Part shown: piece by piece, positions 5,999-51,614 of the stretch
How positions within the stretch are numbered: the stretch's first letter is position 1
Layout of the letters: every line of letters starts with the position of its first letter
Source of the DNA: Nitrosopumilus cobalaminigenes
GTDB taxonomy: Archaea; Thermoproteota; Nitrososphaeria; Nitrososphaerales; Nitrosopumilaceae
NCBI RefSeq assembly: GCF_013407145.1
Contig: NZ_CP026993.1
Coordinates: forward strand, 1,324,590 to 1,388,589
Direction of reading: 5' to 3'
DNA length: 64,000 nucleotides
The notes under the pieces: model-generated
Database searches by the model: none
The model's input: the letters and a program-made list of their open reading frames with translations, nothing else
Told to the model about the DNA's origin: nothing
Made by a program: the position numbers and the translations under genes

Positions 5999-6175
5999 CT
6001 ATTTTGAATAGATTTTTTGGGCTTGGATAATGACGGTTCGAATGTAATCCTTGGCAGTTGAATCAGTAACACCCATTTGTTTTGCTCTTTGATATAGATC
6101 ATTTTCTCTTGGATTTGTCAGATAACATTTCAAAAGATAGTTTAGTCTATGAGATCTTTTTTCATCACTTTTCAT
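5999..6175 (-). CDS. Small 58-residue helix-turn-helix-like protein
   Basis: An ATG-started 58-residue ORF. It reads MKSDEKRSHRLNYLLKCYLT, then NPRENDLYQRAKQMGVTDST, then AKDYIRTVIIQAQKIYSK. The helices (RLNYLLKCYL, DLYQRAKQMG) followed by VTDSTAKDYIRTVI resemble a helix-turn-helix or winged-helix module in which DSTAKDYIRTVI would be the recognition helix. Codon use is like the surrounding genes. It sits directly upstream of the membrane protein gene at 5257-5952 and may share its transcript. DNA binding is inference only. Confidence 0.6.
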   Translation of the reverse strand: MKSDEKRSHRLNYLLKCYLTNPRENDLYQRAKQMGVTDSTAKDYIRTVIIQAQKIYSK

Positions 6176-6297: not shown

Positions 6298-6645
6298 ATG
6301 CAAATGAAACGAATTGAGGCAACGGTTCAGGCAACTAAAATTGGTGCAGTCACTGAAGCAATCAGCGAAATTGTAGGTGGATTCACTATTCTGGAAGGAA
6401 AAGGTAGGGGTTCTGGAGCTAGACAAGAAATGAGATCTGGTAGAGGAACTGGTACTATTACTGCAGAATACAATGAAGTTGCAACTGTTAGTACAATTGT
6501 AGATGACTCAGACGTAGAAAAAATTTCCTCAGCTATTGCTGATGCAGCTTTTACAGGAAAAGGCGGAGATGGAATTATTATCGTATCCAATGTGGATACC
6601 GTCTTGAATATAGCATCTAAAAAGAGTGGTTCTGAAGCCCTCTAA
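6298..6645 (+). CDS. P-II family nitrogen-regulatory protein, divergent T-loop
   Basis: At 115 residues it has the P-II length and fold pattern: MKRIEATVQATKIGAVTEAI at the start, GGFTILEGKGRGSG leading into the T-loop, and the B-loop/C-terminal stretch AFTGKGGDGIIIVSNVD. P-II trimers sense 2-oxoglutarate and ATP/ADP and regulate ammonium transport and assimilation. The T-loop is unusual: the canonical YRGAEY segment with the modified Tyr is replaced by a Gly/Thr-rich GTGTITAEY, and the Lys/Arg after GDG is Ile. No ammonium transporter gene is adjacent. ATG at 6294 is out of frame; 6298 gives the P-II N-terminus. Confidence 0.88.
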   Translation: MQMKRIEATVQATKIGAVTEAISEIVGGFTILEGKGRGSGARQEMRSGRGTGTITAEYNEVATVSTIVDDSDVEKISSAIADAAFTGKGGDGIIIVSNVDTVLNIASKKSGSEAL

Positions 6646-6681
6646 TCATTTTCTTTTATCAAATCTATATCATTAATTATT

Positions 6682-6762
6682 GAAAATTAAACTGCTGAGA
6701 GGGTGACAACCTCCTCTCAGGGGTGTTATCCCTTTGGGGGACATGTTTTTTGAAGGGATGGT
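6682..6762 (-). ncRNA. Candidate structured small RNA (strand provisional)
   Basis: Between the convergent P-II and AsnC-like genes lie two perfect stem-loops: an 8-bp stem with arms 6695-6702 (ctgagagg) and 6713-6720, and a 7-bp stem with arms 6728-6734 and 6753-6759 (aagggat). On the minus strand, a cttttatact box at 6779-6788 is the same decamer as in the S-layer promoter, and would start RNA at about 6757-6762, exactly where the first stem begins. A T-rich stretch (6682-6690) follows the second stem. The predicted RNA would expose C-rich single strands between and within the loops. A plus-strand reading as a P-II 3' UTR or terminator is the alternative. Confidence 0.5.
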
Positions 6763-6778
6763 GTAGTATTACAATTTG

Positions 6779-6788
6779 AGTATAAAAG
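6779..6788 (-). promoter_or_regulatory. Minus-strand TATA box of the candidate small RNA
   Basis: The plus-strand sequence agtataaaag reads cttttatact on the minus strand and is identical to the box of the S-layer gene at 38261-38270. It lies beyond the AsnC-like stop codon and points towards the hairpins, not towards any coding gene. Confidence 0.5.
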
Positions 6789-6804
6789 CAAAGGATTTTG
6801 AAGA

Positions 6805-7044
6805 TTATTGTTGACCTTCAATTCCCATTAAGGTTAGTGTTGATCTAATTTTTGGAATTTTTCTTATCTTCCAAGTAATAGTTTCTCGTAGGGCTTCTAC
6901 TTGACTTGATTCTACTTTGGCCAAAATGTCATATGCACCAAAGGTACCATGTACTTCAACAACACCTTCAATTGATTTTAGTTCTGAGATTACTGCTTCT
7001 TCAGAACCAAGCTCACAGTTTATGAGAACATAAGCCGTTGCCAA
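6805..7044 (-). CDS. Lrp/AsnC-type ligand-binding (RAM) domain protein, stand-alone
   Basis: A 79-residue protein starting at TTG (MATAYVLINCELG). It matches the C-terminal effector domain of Lrp/AsnC regulators alone: a beta-alpha-beta-beta-alpha-beta pattern with GSEEAVISELKSIEGVVEVHGTFGAYDILAKVES. The helix-turn-helix domain is missing, as in the known stand-alone RAM proteins of archaea, which bind amino acids or modulate full-length Lrp proteins. A TATA-like box (about 7087-7096) precedes it with a short leader. The neighbouring P-II gene hints at nitrogen or amino-acid sensing, which is inference. Confidence 0.85.
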   Translation of the reverse strand: MATAYVLINCELGSEEAVISELKSIEGVVEVHGTFGAYDILAKVESSQVEALRETITWKIRKIPKIRSTLTLMGIEGQQ

Positions 7045-8202: not shown

Positions 8203-10374
8203 TTAGTTATCTGGACAGCCGTCTTCATCTCTGTCACCATCATAATCCTCAGGGTCAAGAGGACACAAATCTTCATCATTTATGATATCATCTAGATCAT
8301 CATCATGGACAAATCTTTGTTGTTCTGGAGCAGTATCTGGGCAGCCGTCATGATCATTGTATTTATTCCAGGTTTCTGGATTAGTTGGACATGAATCAAT
8401 TGAATCATAGTAACCATCACCGTCAGAATCAATTCTTGTTGGAGTAGTAGATTCTGCGGCTAGTACATCAGGACAACCGTCCCAATCAAGATATCCATTA
8501 AAGTTTTCTTGTTCATCAATACATGCATCTTTTCTATCATCTATTCCATCACCGTCAGTGTCAGCAAAACTATGGGATGGTATAACAGAACCAGTAGAAT
8601 CAGGACATCCGTCTTCATCCTGATAGAAATTATAAGTTTCAGGGTCTAATGGACATGCATCAGAAACATCAACAATTCCATCTAGATCAGAATCTAGAGT
8701 AAATACAAATTTGTCAGGACATCCGTCTTTATCTTGGAAGCCGTTAAATGTTTCAGGTTGACCAGGGCAGGAATCTAAATTATCTGGAATTCCATCGCCA
8801 TCAGTATCTGGAGTGCCTTTGTTATCTGCCAAATTATCTGGACAGCCGTCAGTGTCTTGATACCTATTGTAAGTTTCTCTAGCATTAGGACACTGATCTA
8901 CATTATCAGTAATACCATCAAAATCAGAATCGCCAAACGAGTCATAGGCTATAGTATCAGGGCAACCATCTTCATCTTGGAATCCGTTATATTTTTCAGC
9001 TAATGTTGGACATGCATCAAGTATATCTGGAATATAATCATAATCAATATCAGATAAAGCAGATTTTGAAAATCCTTCAATATCTGGACAGCCATCTGTG
9101 TCTAAGAAATTATTATAATTTTCTGGCTCATCAATACATGCATCCCATCTATCATCTATTCCATCTCCATCTTTATCTGGAAAAATGTAAGATGACACAA
9201 TAGAGCCAGTAGCATCTGGACAGCCGTCACCATCTTTGAAAAAGTTGTATGTTTCTGGTTCATTTGGACATGCATCGTTAACATTTAGAATTCCATCCAT
9301 ATCTGAATCTAATTTAGAATCAAAGCTATCTGGACAACCATCAGTATCTAAGAATCCATTAAATGTTTCAGGTTGGTTTGGACAATGATCTAGATTATCA
9401 ACTATTCCATCACCATCATTGTCTGATGTAAGTTTGTTATCTGGAATTAAATCTGGACAGCCGTCACTGTCAAGATATTTGTTGTAAGTCTCTTTGGAAT
9501 AAGGACAAGCATCAAATTGATTTAATATTCCATCACCGTCAGTGTCACCAGTTATAGCAAGTTCGATTTCATCTGGACAACCGTCATGGTCTTGGAATTT
9601 GTTAAAATTTTCACGTTCTAAAGGACATGCATCAACAGAGTCAAGAATACTATCATAATCTGAATCAATTAATCCATTAGAAGCATTGCCAAGAACATCT
9701 ATACAGCCGTCCCAATCAAGGTAACCATTATAATTTTCTGGTTCATTAATACATTGATCCCATCTATCATCTATTCCATCACCGTCAATATCTGGGAAAG
9801 AATATTGGGAATCAATTGAATCAACATTATCTGGACAACCGTCTGCGTCTTGGAATTTGTTGTAAGTTTCAGGCTCTAGTGGACATGCATCTAAAGCATC
9901 AGAAATACCATCTCGGTCAGAATCTCTTAAAGTAAAAGCATCATCTGGGCAACCATCTTTGTCGTCAATACCATTGAAAGTTTCAGCTCGACTAGGACAC
10001 AAATCCATAAAATCAGGATAGCCATCACCGTCAGTGTCAATAATACCTTTTGGAGTATTAGGTGATAAATCTGGACAACCGTCATCATCTTGGAATTTGT
10101 TGTAAGTTTCTTTCACAGTGGGACAATTATCAAGATGATCTTGAATTCCATCATAATCAGCATCATACCATGGAACAAAGTCTGCCGGACAACCATCAAT
10201 ATTGTTACCATATTGTGGGTCATAATCTTCTAAAAGATGAGGACAAAAATCAAGAGCATTTGGAACACCGTCACCGTCAGAATCAATATCTTCAGCTGCA
10301 AAAACATTACCTGGCATCATGCCAATTGTGGATGTAAGTAAAAGTAAAAATCCTAAAAGATATTGTTTTTTCAT
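8203..10374 (-). CDS. Secreted thrombospondin type 3-repeat protein, copy 1 (17 repeats)
   Basis: A 723-residue acidic protein. A Sec signal peptide (MKKQYLLGFLLLLTSTIGMM, cleavage likely after NVFA) is followed by 17 repeats of about 40 residues of the form DxDxDGxxDxxDxCPxxxExYNxxxDxDGCPD. Each repeat offers Ca-binding DxDxDG loops and two cysteines, as in thrombospondin type 3 repeats and OmpA-linked TSP3 proteins. No transmembrane helix or anchor is seen, so it is probably exported and bound to the cell surface by other means, or released. It is a paralogue of the next gene, identical in signal peptide and near-identical in the first and last repeats. A TATA-like box near 10405-10412 suggests its own promoter. 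Confidence 0.88.
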   Translation of the reverse strand: MKKQYLLGFLLLLTSTIGMMPGNVFAAEDIDSDGDGVPNALDFCPHLLEDYDPQYGNNIDGCPADFVPWYDADYDGIQDHLDNCPTVKETYNKFQDDDGCPDLSPNTPKGIIDTDGDGYPDFMDLCPSRAETFNGIDDKDGCPDDAFTLRDSDRDGISDALDACPLEPETYNKFQDADGCPDNVDSIDSQYSFPDIDGDGIDDRWDQCINEPENYNGYLDWDGCIDVLGNASNGLIDSDYDSILDSVDACPLERENFNKFQDHDGCPDEIELAITGDTDGDGILNQFDACPYSKETYNKYLDSDGCPDLIPDNKLTSDNDGDGIVDNLDHCPNQPETFNGFLDTDGCPDSFDSKLDSDMDGILNVNDACPNEPETYNFFKDGDGCPDATGSIVSSYIFPDKDGDGIDDRWDACIDEPENYNNFLDTDGCPDIEGFSKSALSDIDYDYIPDILDACPTLAEKYNGFQDEDGCPDTIAYDSFGDSDFDGITDNVDQCPNARETYNRYQDTDGCPDNLADNKGTPDTDGDGIPDNLDSCPGQPETFNGFQDKDGCPDKFVFTLDSDLDGIVDVSDACPLDPETYNFYQDEDGCPDSTGSVIPSHSFADTDGDGIDDRKDACIDEQENFNGYLDWDGCPDVLAAESTTPTRIDSDGDGYYDSIDSCPTNPETWNKYNDHDGCPDTAPEQQRFVHDDDLDDIINDEDLCPLDPEDYDGDRDEDGCPDN

Positions 10375-38260: not shown

Positions 38261-38270
38261 AGTATAAAAG
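38261..38270 (-). promoter_or_regulatory. TATA box of the S-layer gene
   Basis: The plus-strand agtataaaag reads cttttatact on the minus strand, centred about 30 nt before the ATG at 38235. It gives a very short leader. The identical decamer occurs at 6779-6788. Confidence 0.8.
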
Positions 38271-51538: not shown

Positions 51539-51613
51539 AGCGGGGTGGGGAAGCCAGGTCATCCCGGCGGGCTCATAACCCGCAGTTCAGTAGTTCAAAT
51601 CTACTCCCCGCTA
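51539..51613 (+). tRNA. Initiator tRNA-Met (anticodon CAT)
   Basis: Acceptor arms agcgggg (51539-51545) and ccccgct (51606-51612) pair fully, with discriminator a. Anticodon loop ctcataa has CAT at 51574-51576. Archaeal initiator marks are present: A1-U72 at the end of the acceptor and three G-C pairs (ggg/ccc) next to the anticodon loop. T-stem agtag/ctact with loop ttcaaat. No intron and no encoded CCA. The convergent tiaS stop is 1 nt away. Confidence 0.96.
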
Positions 51614-51614
51614 C

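Follow-up and report, generated by a model that had tools for sequence, protein, structure and literature searches.

The small RNA sRNA162 of Methanosarcina mazei is encoded in an intergenic region of this archaeon and contains a single-stranded region that was proposed for pairing, and its single-stranded linker has been shown to mask a ribosome-binding site (PMC3510493). It has proven targets and acts on its cis-encoded neighbour as well. Tan1, an abundant structured ncRNA of uncultured marine group II Euryarchaeota, comprises 229 nt, was found via its expression and was unlisted in the Rfam searches of the same paper (PMC5069720). The box C/D and H/ACA guides form a further class of short, structured and abundant archaeal RNAs. 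For Nitrosopumilus and its kin no regulatory RNA is described in the literature that we searched. Here we describe a predicted free-standing, single-copy gene for a small non-coding RNA of about 77 nt in Nitrosopumilus cobalaminigenes, which, as judged from sequence comparison, stands for a genuine small-RNA family shared by Nitrosopumilus, Nitrosarchaeum and one further genus. Similar to sRNA162, it is a free-standing intergenic gene with a promoter of its own, as fixed TATA spacing and persistence without its neighbours indicate, and it carries a conserved region that is predicted to be unpaired, AUCCCUUC. However, sRNA162 belongs to another phylum, and no sequence similarity between the two is claimed. 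Tan1, too, comes from another phylum, and was found via expression, whereas the much shorter RNA described here was found by comparison only.

The RNA is previously uncatalogued, as it is contained neither in Rfam 15 nor in the literature searched. The earlier note on this DNA had suspected that standard annotation does not name it, and the Rfam 15 scan agrees: at the gathering threshold it returned only a tRNA elsewhere and no family for the RNA, and in a lenient scan of 6640-6830 all matches stayed below half of each family's threshold. Earlier detection is possible, for instance in marine start-site tables or small-RNA surveys; a marine study mapped thaumarchaeal start sites (PMC5069720), and a 2009 Nature study dealt with marine small RNAs (cited in PMC3353902). 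In contrast to the box C/D and H/ACA guides, the RNA has no C box, ACA tail or kink-turn. Its consensus lacks the RUGAUGA C box of a 5' end, and the sole CUGA, the motif of a 3' D box, is located by chance inside the paired hairpin 2. Where an H/ACA guide would have ACA 3 nt from its 3' end, the tail has YAG or UUG, and the 8-bp stem in front of it is uninterrupted, without an internal pseudouridylation pocket. A riboswitch or mRNA leader was also discarded, as the next co-oriented gene is reached only some 500 nt farther on, past the P-II gene, which points the other way. Elsewhere in the 64,000-nt stretch of the N. cobalaminigenes genome analysed here (the window), ARAGORN calls a tRNA-Met at 51539-51614 (+), for which the Rfam tRNA model remains below its gathering score, and a 723-aa secreted-looking protein (8203-10374, minus strand) has repeated DxDxDG acidic motifs that resemble calcium-binding repeats.

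The RNA gene is located in the gap 6646-6804 between two convergent genes, which encode a P-II protein on the plus strand and a protein with an Lrp/AsnC ligand-binding domain on the minus strand; the gap is present, and both inverted repeats in it are found at the positions given by the earlier note. Read on the minus strand, CTTTTATACT is followed by ATTGYAAT, AUCCCUUC, an A-rich linker, hairpin 1, a short linker, hairpin 2 and a U-rich tail (Table 1). In the alignment of homologs this conserved block is sharply bounded, and the surrounding sequence drifts. The covariance model R1 matches its own genome at 6683..6759 with 85 bits and an E value of 1.3e-17. In many of the relatives examined, a 58-aa protein without Pfam match (MKSDEKRSHRL..., window 5999-6175, minus strand) is found beside the RNA in strongly conserved form.

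Table 1. Predicted parts of the small RNA locus and its flanking genes; positions are those of the window.
Feature	Position	Strand	Basis
Small RNA gene, ~77 nt, AUCCCUUCAAAAAACAUGUCCCCCAAAGGGAUAACACCCCUGAGAGGAGGUUGUCACCCUCUCAGCAGUUUAAUUUU	6683..6759	-	covariance model R1 match and aligned homologs
Promoter, CTTTTATACT (TATA box)	6779..6788	-	TTTATA spacing to A6759
Conserved ATTGTAAT (ATTGYAAT) in the TATA-to-start spacer; candidate operator or promoter-proximal element	6768..6775	-	conservation profile
5' end AUCCCUUC, nearly invariant, predicted single-stranded, candidate seed	6752..6759	-	conservation profile
A-rich linker, length variable	6744..6751	-	alignment A1
Hairpin 1: UGUCCC - loop CCAAA (invariant) - GGGAUA	6727..6743	-	covariation
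Hairpin 2: CUGAGAGG - variable-length loop - CCUCUCAG	6695..6720	-	covariation
U-rich 3' tail, probable terminator	6683..6694	-	base composition; termination itself inferred
P-II protein, convergent neighbour, outside RNA gene	6298..6645	+	PF00543 (Pfam)
Lrp/AsnC ligand-binding domain protein, upstream neighbour, outside RNA gene	6805..7044	-	PF01037 (Pfam)

On the N. cobalaminigenes sequence by itself, the stems carry little weight. When the gap is shuffled with its dinucleotides kept, 53 of 500 shuffles contain a perfect 8-bp arm, the folding z-scores of the N. cobalaminigenes gap are -2.2 (minus) and -2.5 (plus), and single-sequence folding favours the plus strand (-33 kcal/mol), which is the wrong one. 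It is the comparative evidence that carries the case for an RNA. In alignment A1, which comprises 30 diverse sequences, 97.9% of the cells are paired and 9 of the 14 pairs show compensatory double changes. Neither value was reached in any of 500 shuffles, a control from which the relatedness of the sequences is not removed, so that 0/500 is no formal probability; in the slid control the relatedness is retained. The covariation is 0.270 versus 0.157 in the shuffles and at most 0.092 in the slid controls, and when the partners are slid by 1-3 columns pairing falls to 43-50%. The 8-bp stem of the earlier note (6695-6702/6713-6720) is right and corresponds to hairpin 2, with 97.9% of the cells paired and double changes in five of eight pairs; aligning the gap from relatives, a check that this note had proposed, gave stems that are kept via compensatory changes. 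The 7-bp stem proposed beside it (6728-6734/6753-6759) did not hold, as it has no double change and pairs no better than the shuffles. This AUCCCUU/AAGGGAU pairing breaks whenever hairpin 1 changes, and the overlapping hairpin 1 (6738-6743/6727-6732) co-varies instead, with 97.8% of the cells paired, double changes in four of six pairs and one inner pair seen as C-G, U-A and A-U. The wobble pairs give the strand: 35 cells pair only as minus-strand RNA (G-U) and six only as plus, and in 21 of the 30 sequences hairpin 1 contains a G-U pair, whose plus-strand counterpart, A opposite C, could not pair. A plus-strand start, which had been considered as well, fails because of these wobble cells and because on that strand the sequence 5' of the element is not conserved.

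TTTATA begins 26-27 nt upstream of the conserved A (6759) in 81 of 88 homologs, which is the usual archaeal distance from TATA box to start. Because of this spacing, and because conservation begins there, 6759 is the predicted start; the 3' end is predicted at the U-rich stretch that follows the last stem, as the earlier note had seen in N. cobalaminigenes. Across 86 homologs the 25 nt past that stem contain 46% T, 10% C and 9% G. The structured minus-strand RNA under the CTTTTATACT promoter that had been proposed is supported by TATA spacing, covariation and wobble bias. Both copies of the decamer AGTATAAAAG, at 6779-6788 and at 38261 (according to the earlier note that of the S-layer gene), are present, and these two, the only copies in 64 kb, compare with a mean of 0.2 in dinucleotide shuffles of the window. 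The conserved ATTGYAAT might serve as an operator, and its ATTGCAAT form is perfectly palindromic. When ten genomes were scanned for TATA-N5-ATTGYAAT, chiefly the promoter of the RNA was found; a wider regulon was dropped, the remaining matches being intragenic or not conserved.

The block AUCCCUUC holds 1.6-2.0 bits per position among the 88 homologs, and in the alignment no partner for it was found within the molecule, pairing to 6728-6734 being unsupported by covariation. Since the two arms of the 7-bp stem are not kept as partners, the 5' end of the RNA is probably single-stranded, and since that stem lacks double changes the block must be conserved for a reason other than this helix. Such 5' conservation without intramolecular pairing is as expected of a trans-acting seed.

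Strong DNA matches to the gap occur in about 88 of 250 genomes of the family, and model R1 detects one copy each in 93 of the 250, which belong to three of 22 genera: in g1, the genus from which the window comes, 73 of 95 genomes have it, in g11 16 of 18 and in g5 four of five. No match came from the remaining 19 genera, nor, under stricter filters, from the rest of a class sample of 400 genomes and 82 genera. Several of the genomes without the RNA are incomplete assemblies. Named records with the RNA pattern are from Nitrosopumilus and Nitrosarchaeum, plus five bacterial ones, about the chance level for the pattern, and no copy was found on viral contigs. Sister genera that retain dusA showed no relics above noise beside this gene. 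The unit would have been gained before the lineages of Nitrosopumilus, Nitrosarchaeum and g5 split. The complete genome G117 has, downstream of P-II, a decayed copy from which both the TATA box and the 5' block are missing, the copy in G151 (L082) appears decayed, and the complete genome G174 has lost the RNA; being decayed or missing in a few species, the RNA unit is dispensable. At the G117 locus (L183) the whole neighbourhood is decaying together, with an internal TGA in P-II, a disrupted AsnC frame and the decayed RNA.

With a nearly invariant 5' block that is predicted to be unpaired, a variable linker, two hairpins, a U-rich end, its own promoter and Lsm proteins, of which the genome encodes three, the RNA is built like a trans-acting antisense RNA such as sRNA162, and a regulatory role is probable. 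Transcription would begin at about 6759, driven by the RNA's own TATA promoter, and cease near 6683, in the U-rich stretch. The unpaired 5' AUCCCUUC, perhaps together with the invariant CCAAA loop, would pair in trans with GAAGGGAU-like sites in mRNAs and thereby alter how these are translated or how stable they are. The two hairpins would make the RNA more stable and terminate its transcription, or else be bound by a protein, for instance an Lsm. To this scheme of antisense regulation via a 5' seed, with hairpins that stabilise, terminate or bind protein, we give roughly even chances. A search of ten genomes with the exact 10-nt seed, which demanded exact matches and used gene starts guessed from ORFs, yielded no site at a translation start that would set genomes with the RNA apart from those without it. 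Within the window, the duplex energies calculated for the starts of genes showed no excess over controls. One candidate, the junction of a nuoK-like and a nuoL/M-like gene with UUUGAAGGGAU just before the AUG, has an 11-nt match in two of the ten genomes. The site is kept, mostly as UUGAAAGGAU, also in genera without the RNA, so that coding and start signals explain it and the candidate was dropped. At this junction (G012 and G083; L229 and L259) UUUGAAGGGAUAAUGG overlaps both stop and start, and it is conserved widely in the family, irrespective of the RNA. Other seed sites are mostly located within or antisense to coding frames, and the shared ones fall into conserved coding motifs.

The main rival leaves the RNA gene as it is and assigns it a protein instead of an mRNA as partner, so that it would be a sponge, a scaffold or a subunit of a small RNP, with AUCCCUUC and the CUGAGAGG/CCUCUCAG stem as protein contacts. 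It is in line with the empty antisense target search (the seed scan of ten genomes and the duplex energies in the window) and with hairpin 2 and the CCAAA loop being conserved in their letters and not only as pairs, nearly constant across the three genera. However, protein contact alone requires no free unpaired 5' end, no partner is known, and the RNA is dispensable in some species, unlike housekeeping RNPs. We consider this reading rather unlikely, albeit a serious one.

Much less can be said for an effect on the convergent P-II gene by cis-antisense action or transcription interference, which we regard as very improbable. In Nitrosopumilus the RNA does head towards the 3' end of P-II and stops about 38 nt before the stop codon, but P-II has its own T-rich stretch right after its stop and before the end of the RNA. 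Moreover, three Nitrosopumilus loci (L066, L069, L075) keep the RNA without an adjoining P-II, and three (L044, L066, L076) keep it without AsnC. In g5 and g11 P-II and AsnC are more than 0.6 kb apart with other genes intervening, and the RNA is kept as well; dusA is its usual neighbour where the P-II/AsnC surroundings have changed. As the RNA outlives the loss of P-II or AsnC, it is the terminator or UTR of neither, and as it stays in place despite loss or insertion of neighbours, it is a gene in its own right. In most g5 and g11 loci read, a divergent DUF6659 gene (PF20364) is located upstream of the RNA promoter (L051 1219-1575, L086 1126-1530, others); none was seen there in the window's genus. 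That the unit is merely a bidirectional terminator of two convergent transcripts would suit the gene order and the GC-rich hairpins with T-rich flanks, but such an element has no use for a conserved TATA box at fixed spacing or for a 5' block kept invariant and unpaired, and would not need to persist once either gene is lost, so that we regard it as highly improbable. Just as hard to credit is an untranscribed DNA element, i.e. protein-binding palindromes or an attachment site: inverted repeats would fit it, but the wobbles are biased to one strand, the TATA box stands at a fixed distance and the arms co-vary while the loops drift. A small protein gene from the AUG at 6745 can practically be dismissed, for although a frame of 23 codons is open in N. 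cobalaminigenes, the AUG is absent in 10 of 88 homologs, the frame is lost in close relatives, its length scatters from 7 to 36 codons because the loops change length freely, and the pairwise compensatory changes speak against it; as the earlier note had remarked, nothing in the RNA appears coding, there being no conserved open reading frame.

Taken together, the comparison predicts, with near certainty, a conserved unit of promoter and RNA on the minus strand that has two co-varying hairpins and is independent of its neighbours. Few cells in the sea are as numerous as those of Nitrosopumilus and its relatives, by which the first step of nitrification is driven. As it is present in one copy, about 77 nt long and provided with a covariance model, a fixed seed and a 5' end that is predicted to the nucleotide, the RNA is a readily testable entry to their regulation: it can be checked at one coordinate in existing strand-specific RNA-seq, and its natural losses in complete genomes provide comparison strains. 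More tentatively, ammonia-oxidizing archaea could have in it their first conserved regulatory RNA that acts in trans, which would be lineage-specific, have a 5' seed fixed across three genera and tune several mRNAs, with its expression perhaps gated at ATTGYAAT.
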